Below, piece after piece: positions 1-32,898 of a stretch of 60,039 bases of DNA. The DNA is from an uncultured Porphyromonadaceae bacterium. GTDB taxonomy: Bacteria > Bacteroidota > Bacteroidia > Bacteroidales > Muribaculaceae. The position numbers and the translations under genes were made by a program. The notes under the pieces were generated by a model that did no database searches, was not told where the DNA came from, and worked only from the letters and a program-made list of their open reading frames with translations. The stretch spans positions 1 to 60,039 of the forward strand of contig CAMWQB010000004.1 of the NCBI GenBank assembly GCA_947176295.1, in the 5' to 3' direction. How positions within the stretch are numbered: the stretch's first letter is position 1; each line of letters opens with the position of its first letter.

Positions 1-875
1 GTGCGGAAGTTGGCGGGCTCGTCGAGCACGAGGCCGTCGCGGTTGCCGAGGATGTTGGTCGAGAACCAACCGGAGAGGCCCAGGCAACGTGTGCCTCTGA
101 TGGGTGCGAAACCGGATTTCACGAGGGTCTGGCCGGTCTTGAAGTCCTTGCCTGCGATGGGCATCTTGGTCTTCTCGGCGAGTTCCCACATAGCGGGGAA
201 GTCGACTGTCGTGTTGGGGGCACCCATGATGAAGGGAGCGCCTTCCATGAGGGCGGCGTAAGCGTAGCACATTGAGGGGGCGATGTGTTCCTTATCGTCG
301 GCCTTCATAGCAGCTTCGAGGTCGGCGAGGTGGTAGTGAACCTTTTCGTCGACGGGAACATACACTTCGGTTGAAGCAGCCCAGAGGACAACGATGCGGT
401 CTGCGCCGGATTCTTTCTTGAAGTTGCGGATGTCTTCGCGGAGCTGCTCAACGAGTTCCCAGCGTGTGCCGGTCTTAACATTGTCGCCATCGAGACGCTT
501 TGCGTAGTTGTGGTCGAAGGCAGCCTTCATGGGTTTGATAGCCTCGAGCTCTTCCTTGACGGGGTTGATATCCTTTTCCTTGAGGACTTCTGCGTTGATG
601 GCAGATTCGTAAGCGTTGGCAGGATATACGTCCCAAGCTGCGAAAACAATGTCGTTGAGATCAGCGATGGGAACGATTTCGTTGTACTTGAGGTATTTCT
701 TTTCAGCACCTTCACCGACACGCATGCGGTCGTACTGAGTCATGGAGCCAACAGGCTTAGCCAAGCCCTTGCGGGCCATAAAAACGCCGGTCATAAAAGT
801 AGTGGTAACAGCACCGAGGCCTACCACCATAACACCGAGCTTGCCCTCAGCGGGCTTGCAAATTGTCTTGCTCAT
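1..875 (-). CDS. ino1: myo-inositol-1-phosphate synthase, 3' end beyond window
   Basis: Converts glucose 6-phosphate to inositol 1-phosphate using NAD, supplying the head group for inositol lipids. The first 291 residues are visible; the family is usually about 430 aa, so the C-terminal third lies left of the window. The N-terminus carries the Rossmann nucleotide-binding stretch VMVVGLGAVTTT (residues about 15-26), followed by MTQYDRMR, GDNVKTGTRWELVEQ and the family signature AGKDFKTGQT. The ATG at 875 has a Bacteroidetes -7 box about 100 bases upstream. It is the last gene of the minus-strand lipid operon but is separated from the HAD gene by 267 bases and has its own promoter. The reading frame is open throughout the window. 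Confidence 0.9.
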   Translation of the reverse strand, partial: MSKTICKPAEGKLGVMVVGLGAVTTTFMTGVFMARKGLAKPVGSMTQYDRMRVGEGAEKKYLKYNEIVPIADLNDIVFAAWDVYPANAYESAINAEVLKEKDINPVKEELEAIKPMKAAFDHNYAKRLDGDNVKTGTRWELVEQLREDIRNFKKESGADRIVVLWAASTEVYVPVDEKVHYHLADLEAAMKADDKEHIAPSMCYAYAALMEGAPFIMGAPNTTVDFPAMWELAEKTKMPIAGKDFKTGQTLVKSGFAPIRGTRCLGLSGWFSTNILGNRDGLVLDEPANFR

Positions 876-980
876 TGTCTTAAAAATCAGCGGAGAGGTT
901 AGATTATGGTTTATTTGTTTTAATTCTGCTTATCGGATACCAAAAAGGGGCATGCGGGGGCATGCCACGATTTCAGCCCT

Positions 981-1011
981 CAAAAGTACGTATAGTTTTT
1001 GATATATCGAA
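981..1011 (-). promoter_or_regulatory. promoter of inositol phosphate synthase gene
   Basis: On the minus strand TACTTTTG (988-981) matches the Bacteroidetes -7 consensus TAnnTTTG. TTCG (1011-1008) lies 19 bases upstream as a one-mismatch -33 element. It would give a leader of about 100 bases before the ATG at 875. The spacing fits the primary sigma factor of Bacteroidetes. Confidence 0.6.
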
Positions 1012-1142
1012 GGAATTATGCTATAATGTTTGTGAATAGATGTATTATTTCTCTAATTTTTCGACCTATATGCAAACTTGCGTTAATTCATCAGCACGTT
1101 ACGGCCAGGTATGTTAACGCAGCTTAATAGCGCTTATTCAAA

Positions 1143-1862
1143 TCAGATGCCCAAAAGCGGCAATAAGTCGGACAAAGAGGATATGACGGATGGGTGGACG
1201 GCAGCATCTTCTTCGGGCGTCCATCCTTTACCTTTGAGCCAAGCCACCCGGCAGCCTATCGATTCGGCCGGGAGGATGTCTTTTTTGAGGGAATCACCAA
1301 CGACGAGCACCTGCTCGGGCTCGAGGCCGAGTGCGCGTACGCCAAGGCGGAATATCTCAGGGTCGGGCTTACGTACGCCGACGACGGCACTCTCGATGAT
1401 CTGCGGGAAAAATTTATCGAGGCTGAAATCGGCCAGAACCGAAGCTATATTACCATAGAAATTGCTAACGAGCACCAGGGGAAAGCGCTCGGCAAGCGCT
1501 TCAAGGACCGGTCTGGCTTCCTCGACGCATGAGCGGGCGAAAGAATAGCAATATCGCGCCACGGCCTCGGCTTTAAGCTTTACGAGCTCGGGCTCGATAG
1601 CACCTCTGTCGGCGAGCCACTCCAGTTCAATGAGCATCTTGATTCGCAGGAGGTCGAGGAAATTGTGGTCGGGGCGTATATACGGATGTTTGGCGAGAGC
1701 CCTTTCGGCATGGACATAAGCGTCGCGGAAGAGCTCCTTGTCGACATCGACGCCTGCAGCGCGATAACCGTTCCAGATTACTTCGCTCCAATGGTCGCCG
1801 CGGCTGTCGAGCGTGCCGCCGTAGTCGAATATTATGCCTTTGATATCTTGGTCGAATTTCAT
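1143..1862 (-). CDS. HAD-family hydrolase in inositol-lipid operon
   Basis: A 239-aa haloacid dehalogenase superfamily protein, predicted cytoplasmic. Motif I is FDYGGT near residues 13-18 (nucleophile Asp), motif II VSNF, motif III around the Lys of RKPDPEIF and motif IV GDSLKKD. The second motif-I aspartate, which acts as general acid in most phosphatases, is Gly here; DxG variants occur in subfamily IA. It starts 20 bases after the second CDP-alcohol phosphotransferase, so a role in lipid head-group phosphate removal is a reasonable inference. The substrate is unknown. Confidence 0.8.
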   Translation of the reverse strand: MKFDQDIKGIIFDYGGTLDSRGDHWSEVIWNGYRAAGVDVDKELFRDAYVHAERALAKHPYIRPDHNFLDLLRIKMLIELEWLADRGAIEPELVKLKAEAVARYCYSFARSCVEEARPVLEALAERFPLVLVSNFYGNIASVLADFSLDKFFPQIIESAVVGVRKPDPEIFRLGVRALGLEPEQVLVVGDSLKKDILPAESIGCRVAWLKGKGWTPEEDAAVHPSVISSLSDLLPLLGI

Positions 1863-1882
1863 ATACTATATATATTAAGGTG

Positions 1883-2836
1883 TCAGTCGAGCGAACGGGG
1901 AGCGAAATCGCCGGCTCGGAGCGCGGCTGTCATCTTCCGGCAAATAGCCTCGTGTCGACGCATCATATAAACAAGGAGAGAATTGAGCACCACAAGTTCG
2001 AAGGCAAAATAGAGCCATGGCATGCGGGCAAAGAGAGAACAGAAGAGAGCAATCGTGCGCCAGTTGAAGGAGAGGATGTTGGTGAACTTCATCAGGGGGA
2101 GGCTGAGCTTTCGGAAATCGGCACGAAAGGCCTCGGGGATGCGTCCGTCGGGGAAGCGCAGAGCGAGCTCGCGGCGCATCTCCTGCATGGCCGGGGTCAT
2201 GACTTCCTGGTTTGCAGTATAGTTGGCATAGAACCAAAGCGTGATTTTCTTCCAGAAATCGCGTGTCCACGAGAGGCTCTTGAGTTTCTTTCGAAGGGCC
2301 TCAGTAGAATCGAGCTCCGCCCCACCCTCTCCTTTGAGGAAATACAGATGCAGCTGCCTGTAGTAGTCGGCCATTGCCGCCTGCTTGGCATGGCACACAC
2401 CCGAGACTACGGCAATGATCCATATCAGCCAAGGATGAGCCATGAAGAATTGCGAGGTGTAGTTTTCGCGGAGACAGATAGCGACATAGATCGTGAAGAA
2501 CCAAAGGTCGCCACTGAGCCCGTCGAGGATACGTCCGATGCGGGAATATTGCCCGGTCATGCGGGCGAGCTGCCCGTCGGCACTGTCGAAGGAGTTGGCC
2601 CAGACGAGAAGGGCCATGCCGATGACATTTATCCACAATTGATTGAAATAAAAAGCGATGCCGGCAGCGATGCCAATGAAAATCGAGGCAATGGTAATGG
2701 CATTGGGCGAGACGCCGAGGCGCTTGGCCAACAGGGCCCAGCAATAACCTATCGGGCGATAGAAGGCGAGATCGATAGTCTCTTCGGTGTCGAGCGACTT
2801 GAGGGAGGCCTTATAAGCTGAGAAATCTATTTTCAT
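1883..2836 (-). CDS. second CDP-alcohol phosphotransferase
   Basis: A 317-aa integral membrane enzyme of the CDP-alcohol phosphotransferase superfamily, which moves a phospho-lipid from a CDP-activated donor to an alcohol. The signature begins canonically, FDSADGQLAR, then eight residues and GRILDGLSGD. The last aspartate is four residues after the previous one (DGLSGD) rather than the usual three (DxxxD), so the catalytic Asp position is shifted. It is longer than the 232-aa paralogue at 4661-5359 through a charged loop and extra C-terminal segments. Its ATG overlaps the stop of the acyltransferase (ATGA), implying translational coupling. The acceptor alcohol is unknown; an inositol phosphate or a second head group is possible. 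Confidence 0.8.
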   Translation of the reverse strand: MKIDFSAYKASLKSLDTEETIDLAFYRPIGYCWALLAKRLGVSPNAITIASIFIGIAAGIAFYFNQLWINVIGMALLVWANSFDSADGQLARMTGQYSRIGRILDGLSGDLWFFTIYVAICLRENYTSQFFMAHPWLIWIIAVVSGVCHAKQAAMADYYRQLHLYFLKGEGGAELDSTEALRKKLKSLSWTRDFWKKITLWFYANYTANQEVMTPAMQEMRRELALRFPDGRIPEAFRADFRKLSLPLMKFTNILSFNWRTIALFCSLFARMPWLYFAFELVVLNSLLVYMMRRHEAICRKMTAALRAGDFAPRSLD

Positions 2837-3693
2837 TTGTACTTTCTAAGTTCGTAAGTCTTTTGGCGCAAGTATTTCCCGAGCTCCATGGGATTCTCGG
2901 CATGTGCTTTCTGCTCTTCGGGCGAAATCGGCTCTCCGACGGAGATATGGAGGGTCTTTCCGACCTTACGGAACACCTCAGCGGGGATGCGCAGCGAGCG
3001 ACCCTGCCAGAAAATGTGGCCCAGGATATTGCACCAGAGAGAATTCTTGTCGTGGAAGTAGATAGGAATGACCGGCACTTTTGCCCGCCAGATAATCTGC
3101 AGGACACTTTCCTGCCACTCGCGGTCGACGGTACGATAATGCCAGTCGGTCTTGCTCATAGCCCCTGCGGGGAAGAAGCCGAGGGGCTCGCCCTGTGCCA
3201 GCTGCTTGAGAGCCGCGCGGATTCCGGCCACTGAGACGGCGCGCTTCGCAGGGTCGGTGGAAGCACTTTGGTCGACAGCGATAAAATTCGGGCGCATAGC
3301 AGTGATGTGTCCGAGAATCATGTTCACCATGACCTTGAAGCGGGGGCGTCGCGAGCCGACAAGATGAATAAGGGCAATGCCATCGAGCGCACCAAGTGGA
3401 TGGTTGCTGACGGTGATGAAAGCTCCTTCGGGCAGGTGGTCGAGGATTTCCTCGTTGTCGACCCTGAGGGTGATTCCGAACTGCTCGGAGAGAAGGCGAG
3501 TGGTGAACTCCGGTCCGGGAGTGTCGCAACAAGCGCGATGGACGCGATTGACCTTATCGACCGAAAGGAAGCGGAGGAGCCAGTTGACGAGCTTGGGGTG
3601 TCCGTCGAGAGCGGGCACCATAGTGCGGATATCGTCGTAGTTCAGGACGTCGGGGCGGACGTCGTATTTTTCGCCATTAACGGTATATTCCAT
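2833..3693 (-). CDS. PlsC-like lipid acyltransferase (GlsA-like)
   Basis: A 286-aa acyltransferase of the glycerolipid/hemolysin type. The acyl-CoA/ACP site is SNHPLGALDG near residue 100 (His and Asp of the NHPxxxxD block), with FFPAGAMS downstream matching the FPEG-like phosphate/acceptor block. It resembles the glsA-like protein at 31115-31966, which has NHPLGGLDG and FPAG, so the two are probably paralogues. It lies 12 bases after the PAP2 gene and overlaps the second phosphotransferase gene by 4 bases. It may acylate an amino-lipid, lyso-lipid or ceramide precursor used by this operon; the acceptor is inferred only. Confidence 0.8.
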   Translation of the reverse strand: MEYTVNGEKYDVRPDVLNYDDIRTMVPALDGHPKLVNWLLRFLSVDKVNRVHRACCDTPGPEFTTRLLSEQFGITLRVDNEEILDHLPEGAFITVSNHPLGALDGIALIHLVGSRRPRFKVMVNMILGHITAMRPNFIAVDQSASTDPAKRAVSVAGIRAALKQLAQGEPLGFFPAGAMSKTDWHYRTVDREWQESVLQIIWRAKVPVIPIYFHDKNSLWCNILGHIFWQGRSLRIPAEVFRKVGKTLHISVGEPISPEEQKAHAENPMELGKYLRQKTYELRKYK

Positions 3694-3705
3694 AGAGCGG
3701 GGGAG

Positions 3706-4638
3706 TTAACGTGAGATGTAAGCAACGTAGCGTGAGATGAAGCGCCGGAAGGGGAGGATGTGCATAAGGAAGAACTCGAAGAGAGCAAATCCGAGGAAGG
3801 CACAAGCAATTCCGGAAAGCACGTCGATGATATAATGATGGGAAGTATAAACTGCCGTGAACCAGATTCCGACCGTAACGACAGCCAGGAGCGCCACCCA
3901 CGCAGCTCCGGCGCGTGAGCGGACCGCATATATCAGCGCCACGAGGGTATAGGCCGAATGGAGCGATGGCAGCGCCGCAAAGACATTGGAATTCCGGGCG
4001 TAGAGCGCATCGAAAATTCCGAGGCCGGTCATGCTGTCGAAGCGCCCGAGCCCTGCAACGTCGCCCGGAGTGCCGGGCACAGCCTCGAAGCCATGGAGCT
4101 CGACATACCACGGCGGGGCCGCGGGATGGACGTAGTAGAACGCAAAGCCAATGAGATTGACCAGCAGGAAGACAAGGGCGAAGCGGAGATATGCATCGCG
4201 GCGCCCTGTGAAATACAGCCACAAGCCGAAAATGATGGGCAGGGGCACCCAGCAGAGATAGAACACGCCGGCAAGGAAATCCATGACGGGATGGTTGTGG
4301 AGCGCAAAGAACTCGTTGGGTGTGAGGATGCCGCCGGAGGTGGATATTCCGAATATAGCTTTTTCGGCCCCATAGAGGCCTGCGACGTCGACATGATTTA
4401 CCTTATAGTTCGGCAGGAGATTCATCCAGTCGTAGCTTATTCCAAAAAGGAAGAAAGGAATGAGAGCCACGACGAGGCGCCGCGTTGGCCCGGAGATAAA
4501 GAAGAGAAGAAAAATCAGGAAGGCCAGGGCGAGATGCTCGGGTCGGAAACCTATGCCGAAAGCCGTAACGCTGAGCCACACTACAAGGGCTATGGCACAA
4601 GCAAGAGACTCGATGCGTGAAGGCAGGGATACTGTCAT
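3706..4638 (-). CDS. PAP2/AUR1-like inositol phosphorylceramide synthase candidate
   Basis: A 310-aa polytopic membrane protein. The phosphatase/transferase motifs are HPAAPPWY (as in AUR1-type enzymes, in place of KxxxxxxRP), PSLHS and HHYIIDV (H-x3-D). AUR1-type proteins transfer inositol phosphate from phosphatidylinositol to ceramide. I chose the ATG at 4638, giving MTVSLPSRIE, because the longer open frame would run into the preceding phosphotransferase gene. It starts 22 bases after that gene. In Bacteroides thetaiotaomicron a protein of this type sits in the inositol lipid cluster as I recall, which supports the assignment. A general lipid phosphatase is the alternative. Confidence 0.8.
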   Translation of the reverse strand: MTVSLPSRIESLACAIALVVWLSVTAFGIGFRPEHLALAFLIFLLFFISGPTRRLVVALIPFFLFGISYDWMNLLPNYKVNHVDVAGLYGAEKAIFGISTSGGILTPNEFFALHNHPVMDFLAGVFYLCWVPLPIIFGLWLYFTGRRDAYLRFALVFLLVNLIGFAFYYVHPAAPPWYVELHGFEAVPGTPGDVAGLGRFDSMTGLGIFDALYARNSNVFAALPSLHSAYTLVALIYAVRSRAGAAWVALLAVVTVGIWFTAVYTSHHYIIDVLSGIACAFLGFALFEFFLMHILPFRRFISRYVAYISR

Positions 4639-4660
4639 AATGTCTAAACCGCAGGTATTC

Positions 4661-5359
4661 TTACTTAAGAGCCTTCCGGCAGTGGGATATCCGGGCAAAT
4701 GCCGTAAGGTTGGCAAATATGGCGATAATCCACATAGCCACAAGGAGAATGGCGTCGGGGGAGAAGGAGGAGGCAGGGTCGATGCACTGACCGGTGATAC
4801 CCGTTGCCAAAAGGGCGATTGCCGTAACCACCACTCGCTCGGGACGCTGCATGAAGCCGACCTTGCACTCGATGTCGAGCCCTTCGGCACGGGCGCGGAC
4901 ATAGCTTACCATGATGCTACCCACGAGGGCCAGGAATGTAACGATGGCCGAACCGAAGGCGCCGCAGCCCATAAAATAGTATGCTATACCCCCGAGGGTG
5001 AAGAGCTCGCAATAGCGGTCGAGAACAGAATCGTACATCGCGCCGAAGCGGCTGACCATCCCACCGATGCGCGCCACCTGTCCATCGAGCATATCGAAGA
5101 GCGAGAATCCGATGACGAGAGCGCCGGCGAGAGTAACGAGGGCGTAGTCGGGGCGGGCGTCGCCTCCGGCCTGCATCACCTTCCATCCGGCCCAAGCCAT
5201 GACGGCCGCAGCTGCGGCGTTGCCGAGGAAGCCGATTGTCGTGACCATATTGGGAGTAACACCCATCTTAATGAGAAGCCTGACGAAAGGATTGATTACC
5301 ACATATATGCCCTGCTGAAGGGCATCCCTCGAAGATTTTGCTGTCTTTTTGATGTTCAT
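4661..5359 (-). CDS. CDP-alcohol phosphotransferase, phosphatidylinositol-phosphate synthase type
   Basis: A 232-aa membrane enzyme with a perfect superfamily signature: FDMLDGQVAR, eight residues, then GAMYDSVLD, so all four aspartates, both glycines and Ala-Arg fit D-x2-DG-x2-AR-x8-G-x3-D-x3-D. In an operon with inositol-phosphate synthase it most likely joins CDP-diacylglycerol (or a CDP-lipid) to inositol 1-phosphate to give phosphatidylinositol phosphate. It lies between GtrA and the AUR1-like gene, and the PgpA-type phosphatase upstream could remove the remaining phosphate. Phosphatidylglycerophosphate synthase is possible from sequence alone, but context favours inositol. Confidence 0.85.
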   Translation of the reverse strand: MNIKKTAKSSRDALQQGIYVVINPFVRLLIKMGVTPNMVTTIGFLGNAAAAAVMAWAGWKVMQAGGDARPDYALVTLAGALVIGFSLFDMLDGQVARIGGMVSRFGAMYDSVLDRYCELFTLGGIAYYFMGCGAFGSAIVTFLALVGSIMVSYVRARAEGLDIECKVGFMQRPERVVVTAIALLATGITGQCIDPASSFSPDAILLVAMWIIAIFANLTAFARISHCRKALK

Positions 5360-5374
5360 GACGAATGTGATATC

Positions 5375-5944
5375 TTAGTTTTTGGGGGAAGAGGCAGAAG
5401 AATTGCCGCGCTTCCGCGGCACGAATATGGAAGCGACGCGTATGGCCAGGGGGTCGAAGCGCGTGGGACGATAGACAAAATAGCGCTGGAGCGCAAAATT
5501 CCAGAACCAGGAGACGAGGAGCGACACCAGCAGAGTGGACACGGCGAAAATAGCGTCGGGCGTGAAGCCGAGCTTATGCAGGAACTCCCAGCGGCTCAAG
5601 CCCATTGCGCCAAAGGTTGTGCCATACATATTGAGGAGGAGGGAGCCGGTCCAGACAAGGATATACTTGACAATGACGGCCCGGACGCTCTGGCCGGAGG
5701 CATGGAAGGTGAAGTGATAATTTATGGCGCAATTGACCACACCTCCGAGAATGGCACCGCAGGCCACGGAGAGGTTAGAGCGGTAGAAGGGGTCGAGAGC
5801 CTTGAAGACGAAGGAGAAGAGCAGGACACGGACAATCATGTCGGTCCACGATGCGGCCTGCGACGAAACTATAGAACGCAGAAAGGTGAAGACCAGCGAA
5901 TTGTTGTGGAGGAGCTTGTCTCCTACATTCTTCAATTTATCCAT
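5375..5944 (-). CDS. GtrA family membrane protein
   Basis: A 189-aa protein with about four hydrophobic helices, the N-terminal FLRSIVSSQAASWTDM segment and the NYHFTFHAS motif typical of GtrA proteins, which are thought to help flip or translocate lipid-linked sugars. It is spaced 12 bases from pgpA and 15 from the phosphotransferase gene. A GtrA-like gene inside the inositol-lipid cluster suggests movement of an inositol or glycosylated lipid across the inner membrane; this is inference. The C-terminal tail is basic and serine-rich. Confidence 0.8.
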   Translation of the reverse strand: MDKLKNVGDKLLHNNSLVFTFLRSIVSSQAASWTDMIVRVLLFSFVFKALDPFYRSNLSVACGAILGGVVNCAINYHFTFHASGQSVRAVIVKYILVWTGSLLLNMYGTTFGAMGLSRWEFLHKLGFTPDAIFAVSTLLVSLLVSWFWNFALQRYFVYRPTRFDPLAIRVASIFVPRKRGNSSASSPKN

Positions 5945-5956
5945 TTGTGTAGGGTC

Positions 5957-6502
5957 TTAAACGAGGATGTTGAGAACGCAGATGATAATGGCAGAATAAA
6001 TGCCGGCGAGAATATCATCGGCCATCATGCCATATCCGCGCGGGAGGCGCTCCATGGCTCTAATTCCGAGTGGCTTCACAATATCGAAGAAGCGGAAGAG
6101 GGCGAGCGAGAGCAAAATCTCCCACCAGGGACATCCCGGAAGGACGGGTAGTAGGCTGATCCACTGGCCGACGGTTTCGTCGGCGCAGGCGATGACGGGA
6201 TCCTTGCCCCAGTATTTCTCGGAGACAGAACTGGCCCACGTGCCGCCCACGGTGTAGACGACCGCAGCGACGAATGTGGCCCAGAAGCACAGGGCCGGGG
6301 AGGCCCAGAGATAGAGGGGGAGCCACAGAACGATGGCAAGGCAGGCACCCCACGTGCCTGGGGCAAGGGGAAGGTAGCCCACGAAGAAGGATGTGGCGAG
6401 CATGCGGGGAATGAAAGGGAATCCTTCATCGCCGCTCTTGGGGCGCCGGCGGATGTGTGCTGCCGTGCGGGGGTCGAATCTCTCGTTTTCGGGGGTGCTC
6501 AT
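5957..6502 (-). CDS. pgpA: PgpA-type phosphatidylglycerophosphatase A
   Basis: A 181-aa membrane phosphatase with family motifs PLAPGTWG near residue 46, ADETVGQW, RFFDIVKPLG and YGMMADDILAG near the C-terminus. Classic PgpA removes the phosphate from phosphatidylglycerophosphate. In this operon it is the best candidate to dephosphorylate phosphatidylinositol phosphate. Its start overlaps the stop of the ATP-grasp gene by 4 bases. The N-terminal 28 residues are hydrophilic and arginine-rich. Confidence 0.85.
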   Translation of the reverse strand: MSTPENERFDPRTAAHIRRRPKSGDEGFPFIPRMLATSFFVGYLPLAPGTWGACLAIVLWLPLYLWASPALCFWATFVAAVVYTVGGTWASSVSEKYWGKDPVIACADETVGQWISLLPVLPGCPWWEILLSLALFRFFDIVKPLGIRAMERLPRGYGMMADDILAGIYSAIIICVLNILV

Positions 6503-7368
6503 CTGCGATTCTTTTTAATCTGAGCGAGGAATGCCCTTGCGATGAAGGGCGCGGCTTCGGAGCGGCAAGGAGCGAAGGAAGGCCAGTCGTTGAAGTCGAT
6601 TATGCGTGCGACGCCATCGGCGCCAACGACGCAGTCGCCGCCATAGATATGGACATCGAGGAGCGAAGCGGCTTTCTCGCATAGGTCATGGAGGCCTTCG
6701 GGAGAGAATCCGAAGCCCTCGGAAGCGCCGTTGATGGCTTCGTCGCCCCACTTGCTGTGGCCCTCGTCGAAGGGATAGAACCAGTAGAAATAACCCGAAC
6801 CGAGGACTCCATAGAATTTGATGAGATCGCCTTCGAGATGGCGGTTAATTACGGCACGGCTGATTCCGCGCAGGAAATATTCCTGGAGGACTTCCTGAGC
6901 TTCCTCGGCATGGCGGACGTAGCTCACGTCCTCCTTATGCATAGCATGGAAGTCGCCGCGTTTGATCCACACGCGGTCCATCCCACGGGCCACGAGTGCA
7001 TCGCGGACGGCCTCGTCGGTGTTTACGATTATTGATTCGGGATAGGGAATTCCGGAGCCCATGAGAATGCGGGTCATGCGCTCGCGGGTGCAGTTCTCGA
7101 TGCCATAGCCGGAGTTTACGACAATACACCCTTCGTCCTCAAGGGCCTGGAGCTGCCGGATGCTCCTCTGCTCGCGGCACATAGCGAGAATAGCTCTCTC
7201 GCCATTGAGGCCAAGCTCATTGAACTGTTCCTCGCTATACACGTTCACTTCGCAGCCTCGCTTCCGGAGCTGGTCGGCGACGGCGTTGAAGATTGCGGCA
7301 TCATTTCCAATATGGTTAGGCGAATATGCGCCTGCGCGCATTATTCCGGCGATAGTAAGGTCTGCCAT
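6499..7368 (-). CDS. ATP-grasp domain protein, first gene of lipid operon
   Basis: A 289-aa predicted cytoplasmic ATP-grasp enzyme. Visible elements are an N-terminal domain starting MADLTIAGIM, the nucleotide-contact strand VWIKRGDFHAMHK (near residue 140), and the metal/ATP-binding strand GVARIIDFNDWPSF close to the C-terminus, equivalent to the D-x-N element of the fold. Such enzymes ligate a carboxylate to an amine or, in ITPK-type relatives, phosphorylate inositol phosphates. I cannot assign a substrate. The ATG at 7368 was preferred over upstream in-frame starts because those lie beyond the -7 box. It overlaps pgpA by 4 bases. Confidence 0.75.
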   Translation of the reverse strand: MADLTIAGIMRAGAYSPNHIGNDAAIFNAVADQLRKRGCEVNVYSEEQFNELGLNGERAILAMCREQRSIRQLQALEDEGCIVVNSGYGIENCTRERMTRILMGSGIPYPESIIVNTDEAVRDALVARGMDRVWIKRGDFHAMHKEDVSYVRHAEEAQEVLQEYFLRGISRAVINRHLEGDLIKFYGVLGSGYFYWFYPFDEGHSKWGDEAINGASEGFGFSPEGLHDLCEKAASLLDVHIYGGDCVVGADGVARIIDFNDWPSFAPCRSEAAPFIARAFLAQIKKNRR

Positions 7369-7420: not shown

Positions 7421-7428
7421 CAAAGATA
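7421..7428 (-). promoter_or_regulatory. -7 box of inositol-lipid operon
   Basis: TATCTTTG on the minus strand, a perfect TAnnTTTG box, 52 bases before the ATG of the ATP-grasp gene. No good TTTG is seen at the expected -33 position. It is the likely promoter for the eight tightly spaced genes down to 1143. Confidence 0.55.
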
Positions 7429-7549: not shown

Positions 7550-8116
7550 ATGAGAGTAATAACCTTGAACGAACGAGAATTCGAGCATGCGAGCCGACGC
7601 CTTGAGGGGTTGGTCCGGGAGGACTATTGCCCGGATCTGGTGGTGGGCATCGCCATGGGCGGCGAATTTCTGGCCGCGATGATGTTCAAGGATATTCCGC
7701 ACGTGTCGGTGAGGATGCACAGGCCTTCGACGGCCGACAAGGAGAGGGCGAGCATCGTCTTCCGCATTCTCCGGCGCTCGCCCCGGAAGCTCTCGGATGC
7801 ATTGCGGCTTGTGGAGGCGCGGGTGCTGCGGATGAAATCTCTTTGGGAAAAGCCGCGTAAGCTTCAGCTCAAGGCCGAGGCGACCGAAGCAATAGCCACG
7901 GCCAAGCGCGTGCTGGTAGTGGACGATGCCGTGGATTCGGGGGCGACGATGAAGGCCGTGATAGATGCGGTGAGCTCCGTGAAGGGCGAGCGGGAGGTGA
8001 GGAGCGCTGTGATTACGATGACTACCTCCTCCCCGAAGGTGAAGCCCTCGTATGCTCTCTTCCGCAACGGCACACTGATACGCTTCCCCTGGAGCAAGGA
8101 TTTCTATCGCTTATGA
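7550..8116 (+). CDS. phosphoribosyltransferase-domain protein
   Basis: A 188-aa type I phosphoribosyltransferase-fold protein. The PRPP-binding loop is RVLVVDDAVDSGATM (residues about 118-132), a slightly unusual version of the VVDDvxxTGxT motif with Ser in place of Thr. MGGEFLAAMM near residue 36 corresponds to the substrate-side loop. The start at 7550 is set by the promoter just upstream; the open frame runs further left but without support. It overlaps the next gene by 4 bases. A nucleobase salvage or regulatory role is possible; the substrate is unknown. Confidence 0.75.
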   Translation: MRVITLNEREFEHASRRLEGLVREDYCPDLVVGIAMGGEFLAAMMFKDIPHVSVRMHRPSTADKERASIVFRILRRSPRKLSDALRLVEARVLRMKSLWEKPRKLQLKAEATEAIATAKRVLVVDDAVDSGATMKAVIDAVSSVKGEREVRSAVITMTTSSPKVKPSYALFRNGTLIRFPWSKDFYRL

Positions 8117-8685
8117 GTGAAGGTGAAGGCTTCCTGCTTGCGCTGGACCTTGATGGAACATACGTCCGGGGCAATACGTTGCATATCTACATCCGCTGCG
8201 GGCTGCGCGACATGTGGCGCCGCCGCCGCATAGTGCCTCTGGCAAAGTGTATGCTGCTGCTTGCCGCCAGAAAGCTACATCTTGTGAGCCATCGGAAGAT
8301 GAAATTCGACATCTTCGGCCTTATCGAGCCGACAAAGGAATTGCAGGAGGACTTTGAGGAACGGGTGTGGAAAAGGGAGAGCCCCGAGATTCTTGAGCTC
8401 GTTACGGAATATCACGACAAGGGATACTGCGTGCTACTTGCCACGGCCGCACCGGCACAATACGTGCCTCTGATCTGGGGGGCGGACTATGTGGCTACGG
8501 ATATGGACGAGAGGACGAATCCCGGCCGCGTGGAATGCCGGGGAGAGGAGAAGCTGAGGCGCGTGGAGGAATATGCCTCGGCCCGGGGGCTGAGGCTGAA
8601 GGCTGCTATAACGGACGATGCCAAGGACGATGCGCCGCTGCTCGGGGCCGCCGAGGAGCGAATTTTAGTTAAATATCATTCGTAA
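8113..8685 (+). CDS. HAD-family phosphatase
   Basis: A 190-aa HAD protein with motif I LDLDGT at residues about 11-16, with both aspartates present, LLATAAPAQ as motif II and ITDDAKDDAPLL as motif IV. The small cap region and length resemble phosphoserine-phosphatase-like subclass IB members. ATGA overlap with the phosphoribosyltransferase gene indicates a two-gene operon, possibly nucleotide or sugar-phosphate turnover. It is divergent from the inositol-lipid operon. Confidence 0.75.
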   Translation: MSEGEGFLLALDLDGTYVRGNTLHIYIRCGLRDMWRRRRIVPLAKCMLLLAARKLHLVSHRKMKFDIFGLIEPTKELQEDFEERVWKRESPEILELVTEYHDKGYCVLLATAAPAQYVPLIWGADYVATDMDERTNPGRVECRGEEKLRRVEEYASARGLRLKAAITDDAKDDAPLLGAAEERILVKYHS

Positions 8686-31114: not shown

Positions 31115-31966
31115 ATGCCACAAGCTACAGCCCCGTCCGAGGGGCCGATCTGCATAAGCCTTGCCGATGTGCTCCGCACGAAGCTTGGCCCTGGGCGCGC
31201 CCGACGTGTGCCCCGCTTTGCCGTGCGCTTTCTCGAACGGATTATCTGCCAGGACCGGCTGAACGAACTGCTGCGCGCTGCGTGGCCGCTTGAGGGAGCG
31301 GATTTCTGCCATGCCGTGCTCAAGGAGCTCGACGTGGAGGTGAAGCTCGAGGGGCGGGAGAAGCTGCCGGCGTCGGGTCGCGCGCTCTTTGTGTGCAACC
31401 ATCCTTTGGGCGGCCTCGACGGCATTGCCATCATCGCGGCGCTTTCGGAGGTCTACGGCCCGGGGCTGCGATTTGTGGTGAACGATATGCTCATGGCCGT
31501 GGCTCCGCTGCGAGAGGTGTTCGTGCCTGTGAACAAGCACGGGGCGCAGACCCGCGAGAGCGCATCGGCCCTTGAGGCGGCTTTGGCGAGCGATGCTCCG
31601 GTTGTGATTTTTCCGGCGGGGCTGTGCTCCCGGCGGGGCAAGGGTGGAGAAATCGCCGACCTGCCGTGGCTCAAGACTTTCGTGAGCCTTGCGCGGCGGT
31701 GGAAGCGTCCCGTGGTGCCTATGTTCTTTTCGGGGCGCAACTCGTCGTTTTTCTACCGTTTTGCAAATCTGCGCAAGCGCGCGGGCATAAAACTGAATAT
31801 CGAGATGGTGCGCCTTCCGCGGGAGCTTGTCCTGGCCGAGGGGTCGCGCTATCGCCTTGTCTGCGGACACCCCGTCCCGGTGTCGGAACTGGGAGGGCGC
31901 GCTGCCGAAGTGGCGTCGCGCATCCGTGATATAGTCTATTCCTTAGCATCTGAAACCCGTCCATGA
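31115..31966 (+). CDS. glsA: GlsA-like O-acyltransferase for glycine lipid synthesis
   Basis: A 283-aa PlsC-superfamily acyltransferase with NHPLGGLDG near residue 94 and IFPAGLCSRR near residue 167. In Bacteroides thetaiotaomicron GlsA adds the second, ester-linked acyl chain to N-acyl-3-hydroxy-acyl glycine. The adjoining gene is a GNAT acyltransferase of the GlsB type and the stop/start overlap is ATGA, which supports the assignment. Here the gene order is glsA then glsB. Confidence 0.75.
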   Translation: MPQATAPSEGPICISLADVLRTKLGPGRARRVPRFAVRFLERIICQDRLNELLRAAWPLEGADFCHAVLKELDVEVKLEGREKLPASGRALFVCNHPLGGLDGIAIIAALSEVYGPGLRFVVNDMLMAVAPLREVFVPVNKHGAQTRESASALEAALASDAPVVIFPAGLCSRRGKGGEIADLPWLKTFVSLARRWKRPVVPMFFSGRNSSFFYRFANLRKRAGIKLNIEMVRLPRELVLAEGSRYRLVCGHPVPVSELGGRAAEVASRIRDIVYSLASETRP

Positions 31967-32898
31967 ATCAGAAAATTACCGATCCCATACCTACCGAACT
32001 CATCGAGGCAGAACTGACACGCGAGCGCTTTCTGCGCACAACCAACAAGGGTGGCAACGAGCTCTATGTGGTAACCGCCCATAATTCGCCTATGGTAATG
32101 CGCGAGATAGGGCGATTGCGCGAAATAGCCTTCCGCCTCGCGGGCGGAGGGACAGGAAAGGAATGCGACATCGATGAATACGACACGATGGAGCCTCCCT
32201 GCAGCCAGCTTGTGGTGTGGGACCCGGATTCGAAACTCATTCTCGGGGGATACCGCTTTATCCGCGGCTGCGACATCCGCCGGAACGAGGAAGGGGTGCC
32301 CCGCATCGCCACGTCGCACATGTTCCGCTTCTCGGATAAATTCGTGTCGGATTATCTGCCATATACCATCGAGCTGGGGCGTTCGTTCGTGCGTCCGGAA
32401 TACCAGTCGTCGCGTGCCGGGGCGAAGGCACTCTATGCGCTGGACAATCTCTGGGACGGGCTGGGGTCGCTGACGGTGATATATCCCGAGACGAAATATC
32501 TTTTCGGGAAGGTGACGATGTATCCGAGCTATACCCGCGAATGTCGCGACCTTATCCTGTATTTTCTCCACAAGCATTTTCCTGACCGGGAAGGGCTGGT
32601 GCGCCCTATCCGCGCGTTGGAGACGGAAACGCCCGAGGACAAGCTCGCGGCTGTGCTCCCGGGCGATGATTTCAAGACGGACTATCGCATCCTGAATGCG
32701 GAAATCCGCAAATACGGGGATACGATTCCGCCGCTTGTGAATGCTTATATGAGCCTTTCGCCGACGATGAAGATGTTCGGCACGGCCATAAACGACGAGT
32801 TCGGCGATGTTGAGGAAAGCGGCATCCTGCTGACGATAGAAGATATTTTCGAGTCGAAGAAGGCCCGCCACATCAACACCTTCCATCCGGGGGAATAA
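31963..32898 (+). CDS. glsB: GlsB-like N-acyltransferase for glycine lipid synthesis
   Basis: A 311-aa acyltransferase of the GNAT/hemolysin-like type. The N-terminal half contains YVVTAHNSPMVMREIGRLRE, CDIDEYD, LVVWDPDSKLILGGYRF and ELGRSFVRPEYQ, features of the family that acylates ornithine (OlsB) or glycine (GlsB). In Bacteroides GlsB makes the amide-linked 3-hydroxy-acyl glycine, first step of glycine lipids. It is coupled by ATGA overlap to the glsA-like gene. An ornithine lipid role is the alternative. Confidence 0.75.
   Translation: MNQKITDPIPTELIEAELTRERFLRTTNKGGNELYVVTAHNSPMVMREIGRLREIAFRLAGGGTGKECDIDEYDTMEPPCSQLVVWDPDSKLILGGYRFIRGCDIRRNEEGVPRIATSHMFRFSDKFVSDYLPYTIELGRSFVRPEYQSSRAGAKALYALDNLWDGLGSLTVIYPETKYLFGKVTMYPSYTRECRDLILYFLHKHFPDREGLVRPIRALETETPEDKLAAVLPGDDFKTDYRILNAEIRKYGDTIPPLVNAYMSLSPTMKMFGTAINDEFGDVEESGILLTIEDIFESKKARHINTFHPGE

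Follow-up and report, generated by a model that had tools for sequence, protein, structure and literature searches.

In Bacteroides thetaiotaomicron, the inositol lipid cluster is BT_1522-BT_1526, and a putative alternative cluster of B. vulgatus and Prevotella (BVU_RS13095, 13105 and 13115) is marked by an NTP transferase, a CDP-alcohol transferase and a HAD protein (Heaver 2022, PMC9246714). As outlined in that article, each species carries one of the two clusters near myo-inositol-phosphate synthase (MIPS), and in gut Bacteroidetes these lipids influence the capsule, resistance to peptides and fitness within the host (Heaver 2022, PMC9246714). The published view is one of two alternative clusters, whereas many Muribaculaceae appear to hold both in one operon, and this merged operon surrounds an enzyme of the ATP-grasp type that is left out of the pathway model. 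Muribaculaceae are among the major families of the mouse gut, and the window analysed here, the whole stretch of 60,039 nucleotides, comes from one of their members. Its inositol-lipid block lies within 1-7368 and is formed by eight minus-strand genes, from the ATP-grasp gene to the HAD gene, together with MIPS. In transcription order, and followed by two genes located elsewhere in the window, the features are:

7421..7428, minus strand: TAnnTTTG box, 60 bases upstream of the ATP-grasp start
6499..7368, minus strand: ATP-grasp protein of 289 residues, with a sequence profile closest to inositol 1,3,4-trisphosphate kinases (ITPKs)
5957..6502, minus strand: PgpA-type phosphatase, like the PIP phosphatase BT_1525 (PF04608, 1e-35)
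5375..5944, minus strand: GtrA-like membrane protein in the position of BT_1524 (PF04138, conserved position)
4661..5359, minus strand: PIPS-like CDP-alcohol phosphotransferase, BT_1523-like (NF052561, 9.4e-79)
3706..4626, minus strand: AUR1-like phosphoinositol dihydroceramide synthase (PAP2, BT_1522-like; NF052609)
2833..3693, minus strand: acyltransferase, a divergent GlsA relative (PF19576, 1.1e-21)
1883..2836, minus strand: second CDP-alcohol phosphotransferase, CPT2 (PF01066, 4.1e-12)
1143..1862, minus strand: HAD-IA family protein (PF00702, 5.3e-19)
981..988, minus strand: TAnnTTTG box, 113 bases upstream of the MIPS start
1..875, minus strand: MIPS, cut short at its 3' end by the contig edge (PF07994, 1.2e-81)
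31115-31966: GlsA, above cut-off
31963-32898: GlsB, above cut-off

An earlier sequence-only reading had described nine collinear genes joined mostly by overlaps or gaps under 25 bases. All nine are indeed present, and the junctions calculated from the coordinates are -4, 12, 15, 34, 12, -4, 20 and 267 bases in transcription order, the fourth depending on an AUR1-like start that we placed at 4626 in an open frame beginning at 4902, so that six of the eight junctions are overlaps or gaps of at most 20 bases. The widest gap, of 267 bases, precedes MIPS and contains the TAnnTTTG box, which we take to be the Bacteroides promoter motif, and an eight-gene unit with a separate MIPS unit is therefore likelier than a single nine-gene transcript. 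The block is beyond chance because the same gene order is found again in relatives.

The order PgpA, GtrA-like, PIPS, AUR1-like follows that of BT_1525 to BT_1522, and with MIPS these genes match the content of BT_1522-BT_1526, including its GtrA-like or hypothetical protein and its AUR1-like phosphoinositol dihydroceramide synthase. Unlike in that cluster, MIPS lies at the far end here, and the ATP-grasp, acyltransferase, CPT2 and HAD genes are added around the block. MIPS (PF07994 and PF01658) and PgpA (PF04608) are both above cut-offs, so the inositol-phosphate synthase named before is recovered as a family, but its gene is incomplete, with 291 residues inside the contig and PF01658 (Inos-1-P_synth) matched to model position 43 of 107. 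The AUR1-like PAP2 assignment is borne out by NF052609 (phosphoinositol dihydroceramide synthase), whose cut-off of 480 bits is exceeded at 488.8 bits, and serine palmitoyltransferase is found in the same genome. The two remaining names stand in part: the phosphotransferase called canonical has an intact GxxxDxxxD catalytic motif, as do 36 of 36 homologues scored, but reaches 264.4 bits against the NCBIfam cut-off of 350 for its best model, NF052561 (BT1523); and the GtrA name is weak at 21.3 bits, below the Pfam cut-off of 26.1, but the position of the gene is conserved in relatives.

CPT2 and HAD are found near MIPS in the window and in relatives, representing two of the three markers of the alternative cluster. 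The third, the nucleotidyltransferase NTP, is unlinked here, being located beside PdxA on another contig, and the BT-type block stands between ATP-grasp and CPT2, both features being differences from the alternative cluster. Among relatives, NTP is linked in 94 of 147 distinct ATP-grasp loci. CPT2 adopts the CDP-alcohol transferase fold, with the archaeal IPCT-DIPPS (4mnd), which has CDP-inositol chemistry, and AF2299 (4o6m) as its closest folds. Compared with the canonical DxxDGxxAR...GxxxDxxxD motif, the first three Asp residues are present and the fourth is replaced by Gly, as in 135 of 135 homologues with more than 40% identity over more than 200 residues, the next residue being Asp in 131 and Asn in 4. 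The IPCT-DIPPS model NF041135 matches NTP at 2.5e-9 and CPT2 at 8.5e-5, both far below cut-off, suggesting that the two weakly resemble the halves of an archaeal-type IPCT-DIPPS; in contrast to the archaeal systems, the NTP gene is separate, the supposed acceptor is a lipid and the fourth Asp of CPT2 is missing. In HAD phosphatases, the DxD motif provides the nucleophile and acid/base pair, the second Asp normally acting as acid/base. This second Asp is missing from the DYGGT motif of the HAD protein, and DxG is seen in 114 of 114 homologues of more than 150 residues. CPT2 and HAD may be orthologous to the B. vulgatus genes, as judged from gene order and family. The gene order of relatives would fit the B. 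vulgatus locus-tag order, placing ATP-grasp at the unmentioned RS13100; B. vulgatus itself is absent among the best 80 of 561 confirmed loci in a contig scan of genomes.

Since CPT2 and HAD, with NTP on another contig, match the alternative cluster of Heaver 2022, the operon is very probably composed of two inositol-lipid routes. This reading is based on observed gene content and synteny, on co-occurrence patterns, and on NTP and serine palmitoyltransferase being encoded in the genome; the chemistry of both routes would follow from the protein families and the pathway as presented in Heaver 2022 (PMC9246714). In the BT-type route, PIPS would couple inositol-3-phosphate from MIPS to CDP-DAG, PgpA would remove the surplus phosphate, and phosphoinositol would pass to dihydroceramide through the AUR1-like enzyme. 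In the alternative route, NTP would convert inositol phosphate to CDP-inositol, and CPT2, with help of HAD, would transfer phosphoinositol to a lipid acceptor. ATP-grasp, belonging to neither route alone, is probably an ITPK-like kinase whose substrate would be an inositol species shared by the two, namely the inositol-3-phosphate that MIPS supplies or, once the lipid is complete, its inositol head group. Such a merged operon with an ITPK-like ATP-grasp is, on balance, the explanation that we favour for the block as a whole. The further inositol or phospho-sphingolipid product previously proposed from the extra genes is only partly sustained, as CPT2 and HAD already belong to the proposed alternative cluster, are not new and need not mean a new product. 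ATP-grasp does support something further because it receives no mention in the main text of Heaver 2022 (PMC9246714), is more constant than any other gene of the block and is kept in genomes without NTP and strong CPT2. No description of it in an inositol-lipid context was found among the open-licence papers searched, and it appears to be the undescribed part of the block.

Whether ATP-grasp is a kinase or a ligase bears on the favoured explanation. The window protein has no Pfam match at E 0.05, PF05770 (ITPK) included; the best PF05770 score among its relatives is 21.1 bits, under the cut-off of 23, and a search of 296 genomes for a bridge to true ITPKs gave 3 weak matches, all below cut-off. 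Its profile against solved structures places Entamoeba ITPK (1z2n) first at an inflated 1.8e-9, PsnB next at 1e-4, and ITPK4 and human ITPK1 from third place onward at 0.002. Like ITPKs, it has the D-x-N-x-x-P-S/G-F/Y end motif, and it stands alongside MIPS, whose product ITPK1 uses. In contrast, the fold search assigns a RimK/Ddl-type ATP-grasp fold and is led by ligases tied with other ATP-grasp enzymes, ITPK being absent among the matches listed; it therefore fails as an arbiter between kinase and ligase. Sequence evidence thus weakly suggests a kinase, with the chances about evenly balanced, and the same balance applies to an action on an inositol species common to both routes.

The conservation of the block is strong but modular. 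In 15 of 22 same-genus loci, examined out of 29 listed genomes in which CPT2 matched strongly, PIPS and AUR1 lie between ATP-grasp and CPT2, so that the extra genes do stand with the core in relatives; all nine genes occur together in at least 6 of the 22 and in at least 9 of 147 distinct ATP-grasp loci, both lower bounds as contig ends interrupt loci, and a single fixed nine-gene unit is ruled out. Of eight further same-genus members with a weak or no CPT2 match, the one searched (G032) yielded no ATP-grasp.

The order NTP, ATP-grasp, CPT2 in 19 of 20 wide-ranging Bacteroidales loci is relevant to a second explanation, in which ATP-grasp supplies the kinase step lacking from a Kennedy-type route and is part of the alternative route only. 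HAD or another phosphatase would free inositol; ATP-grasp would yield the right isomer by phosphorylating this inositol again or by placing a 1-phosphate on inositol-3-phosphate; NTP would make CDP-inositol, and CPT2 would make PI. Both this order and the faint IPCT-DIPPS likeness argue for it. However, ATP-grasp stays beside PIPS-AUR1 in 13 Muribaculaceae genomes that have no strong NTP and CPT2, which weakens any strict assignment to the NTP route, and the HAD protein lacks the usual acid/base residue. IPCT uses the MIPS product directly for CDP-inositol. Direct use of this product is also part of the model as given in Heaver 2022 (PMC9246714), and we consider a Kennedy-type role rather unlikely.

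Slightly less probable still is a RimK/LysX/Ddl-like ligase attaching an amino acid or a similar group to an inositol lipid or other head group to give an aminoacylated lipid. In the profile search ITPK outranks PsnB by some five orders of magnitude, although the ITPK score is inflated; the profile alignment shows D258-x-N where PsnB has E-x-N; and no carrier protein is recognised among the block ORFs. To a similar degree, it is doubtful that the operon is simply redundant, with both routes leading to the same PI and PI-dihydroceramide in an easily rearranged locus that carries ATP-grasp, acyltransferase and GtrA along as passengers. In favour of redundancy, a quick ATP-grasp tree requires no fewer than 9 changes of PIPS/AUR1, the hybrid class needs a minimum of 4 on well supported branches, and acyltransferase (22 of 147 loci) and GtrA (43 of 147) are patchy. 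Against it, ATP-grasp and CPT2, the latter with only 3 changes, persist through the PIPS/AUR1 changes, and 23 of 24 CPT2-positive genomes retain NTP, in most cases away from the operon; NTP is adjacent to the operon in 0 of 22 same-genus loci. An independent-pairs test of PIPS/AUR1 against CPT2 had too few pairs.

If the ITPK-like kinase of the favoured explanation phosphorylates inositol species, the products could be phosphoinositide-like molecules that hosts might read. Tentatively, and with low probability, Muribaculaceae and other Bacteroidales could use an operon-borne bacterial ITPK-type kinase to turn the MIPS product into phosphorylated inositol lipids, as bacterial phosphoinositides, or into soluble inositol polyphosphates; hitherto this step has been attributed to eukaryotes and archaea.

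The operon acyltransferase scores 116.3 of 260 bits with NF053697 and is 29% identical to the GlsA of the same window. As separate GlsA and GlsB are encoded, it is ruled out as the housekeeping GlsA and is, judged by its sequence, a second, divergent relative of this glycine-lipid enzyme.

The nine-gene inositol-lipid block proposed by the sequence-only reading holds, as eight collinear minus-strand genes run from the ATP-grasp gene (start 7368) to the HAD gene (end 1143) and are followed by the myo-inositol-phosphate synthase (MIPS) gene, which is cut by the contig edge. The window covers the opening 60 kb of contig C4, in an assembly of 2.23 Mb and 138 contigs. The order is ATP-grasp, PgpA, GtrA, a BT_1523-like CDP-alcohol phosphotransferase (PIPS), AUR1-like PAP2, acyltransferase, a second CDP-alcohol phosphotransferase (CPT2), HAD and MIPS. 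The junctions measure -4, 12, 15, 34, 12, -4 and 20 bases, and then 267 bases up to MIPS. TAnnTTTG boxes, which we take to be the Bacteroides -7 element, precede the ATP-grasp start by 60 bases and MIPS by 113 bases; the whole window has 24 such octamers on both strands. An eight-gene transcript and a MIPS gene with its own promoter is the likelier layout. Features at this end of the window are:

1143-1862, minus strand: HAD gene
1883-2836, minus strand: CPT2 gene
about 7556-8685, plus strand: divergent phosphoribosyltransferase-domain gene and weakly HAD-IB-like gene, adjoining the operon start

The published text on the alternative inositol-lipid cluster names a nucleotidyltransferase (NTP; BVU_RS13095), a CDP-alcohol transferase (13105) and a HAD protein (13115), and notes that a homologue of lysylphosphatidylglycerol synthase lies close by (PMC9246714). 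Among 20 order-wide loci chosen by ATP-grasp (19 lie outside the family; L059 is within it), NTP, ATP-grasp and CPT2 stand in this order in 19, with HAD afterwards in 18. A gap of about 1 kb separates CPT2 from HAD in nine of the 20; six of the seven gaps read contain an ORF, and both ORFs tested match LPG_synthase_TM (YbhN-like). These loci fit the alternative cluster (Heaver 2022); going by gene order, 13100, which goes unmentioned, would correspond to ATP-grasp and 13110 to the YbhN gene. ATP-grasp does not occur in the main text of PMC9246714, and the relevant passages of a 2023 review give the same NTP-plus-transferase route again (PMC10191378). L070 (near 4043) and L071 (near 3894) carry an extra CDP-alcohol transferase with a canonical motif, 28-31% identical to CPT2, about 1.9 kb before NTP.

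NTP follows CPT2 across genomes. It is present in all six genomes with strong CPT2 and in 23 of 24 distinct CPT2-positive genomes of a later search (five at only 35-39% identity; the exception is G786), and is absent from all 15 Muribaculaceae without strong CPT2 and from seven further AUR1 genomes of the order. In the window genome, NTP lies apart from the operon on contig C26 (L162, 5104-6928), so that the alternative route can be complete there though split over contigs. PdxA is the usual NTP neighbour in many relatives, and NTP in L162 is stranded beside it.

The two routes are combined in related loci. As the selection of loci went by CPT2 or ATP-grasp or by hand, the counts do not give natural frequencies, and gene absences are uncertain because of contig ends. 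In 20 family loci picked from a CPT2 search, ATP-grasp is always present, directly preceded by NTP in 16; PIPS and AUR1 lie between ATP-grasp and CPT2 in seven, and all nine genes occur in three (L033, L034 and L038), with PdxA-NTP retained in front of the complete set in L038. PIPS and AUR1 are likewise inserted in 15 of 22 same-genus loci, the others having GtrA-acyltransferase, acyltransferase or none of the searched set at that place; six of the 22 have all nine genes, four lack only the acyltransferase, and none has NTP adjacent to the operon. Among 80 named loci, the best of 561 confirmed, CPT2 occurs in all 80, the full BT-type insertion in four and GtrA-acyltransferase only in three, and 13 hold just ATP-grasp and CPT2. 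Eight genomes of this last type were searched, and a strong NTP match was found elsewhere in seven and none in G786. In L125 (10976-13516), ATP-grasp and CPT2 alone are followed by genes resembling, by eye, ribosomal proteins S12 and S7.

The 147 distinct ATP-grasp loci (153 less six with identical proteins) contain CPT2 in 132, HAD in 107, NTP in 94, GtrA in 43, PIPS and AUR1 in 34, acyltransferase in 22 and all nine genes in nine. On a tree of 148 ATP-grasps, built by a quick method with 61 of 145 inner branches unsupported, PIPS/AUR1 changes at least nine times and CPT2 three times. G363 and G467 have both routes at separate places. Unrelated genes between CPT2 and HAD, judged by eye as a possibly secreted 344-residue protein in L034 (10006-11040) and a transposase-like protein in L042 (9982-10557), are signs of rearrangement there.

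ATP-grasp does not follow NTP and CPT2. Of 17 Muribaculaceae genomes that lack a strong CPT2 match, 15 keep it, the exceptions being G032 and G120. In 13 of the 15 it precedes GtrA-PIPS-AUR1 (L176 alone has PgpA in between), and its key residues are unchanged except position 245 (Glu in 11); in L173, at a contig end, and L174 it follows PdxA only. A survey of 198 genomes from the order finds ATP-grasp in 24, AUR1 in 11 and the two together in four; the seven that have AUR1 but not ATP-grasp show that BT-type lipids do not require it. On the simplest reading, ATP-grasp acts on something supplied by either route rather than performing one route's step. The further lipid product proposed from the four extra genes (ATP-grasp, acyltransferase, CPT2 and HAD) is partly supported: half of them come from a putative pathway already in print, and the remaining conserved piece is ATP-grasp, for which no description with inositol lipids was found in the open-licence literature searched.

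The CPT2 profile matched against solved structures finds AF2299 first (9.8e-12), then choline/ethanolamine transferases (1.4e-5 and 5.3e-5), PIPS (0.002) and IPCT-DIPPS (0.006); by fold the order is AF2299 (18.0), IPCT-DIPPS (15.8), PIPS (up to 14.0) and choline transferases (up to 11.7). These relatives, together with the NTP partner, favour CDP-inositol as the predicted donor. At the fourth Asp position of the signature, all 36 PIPS homologues scored keep Asp, and all 135 CPT2 homologues scored have Gly, the next residue being D or N. The HAD protein belongs to the HAD-IA group, and all 114 homologues scored have DxG instead of DxD, with Gly at the D+2 place. We take these positions to be the usual base of CPT2 and the usual acid/base of HAD. 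Replacement of both suggests that CPT2 and HAD may have an unusual mechanism or act jointly, and a phosphatase role of the HAD family is doubtful. A fused CPT2/HAD pair is reported in P. veroralis, in the text on the alternative cluster (PMC9246714).

The pathway of the core five genes is characterised in B. thetaiotaomicron, as described there (PMC9246714). Against the curated model of phosphoinositol dihydroceramide synthase, the AUR1-like protein scores over the cut-off; the PIPS-like protein falls under the cut-off of its model, yet its best model is the right one. The PgpA and MIPS assignments are clear, and the GtrA match is weak. Serine palmitoyltransferase is found over cut-off in the window genome, making sphingolipid synthesis plausible. 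The window also holds a second membrane-lipid locus, given by

31115-31966 and 31963-32898: GlsA and GlsB, overlapping glycine-lipid genes, both over NCBIfam cut-offs
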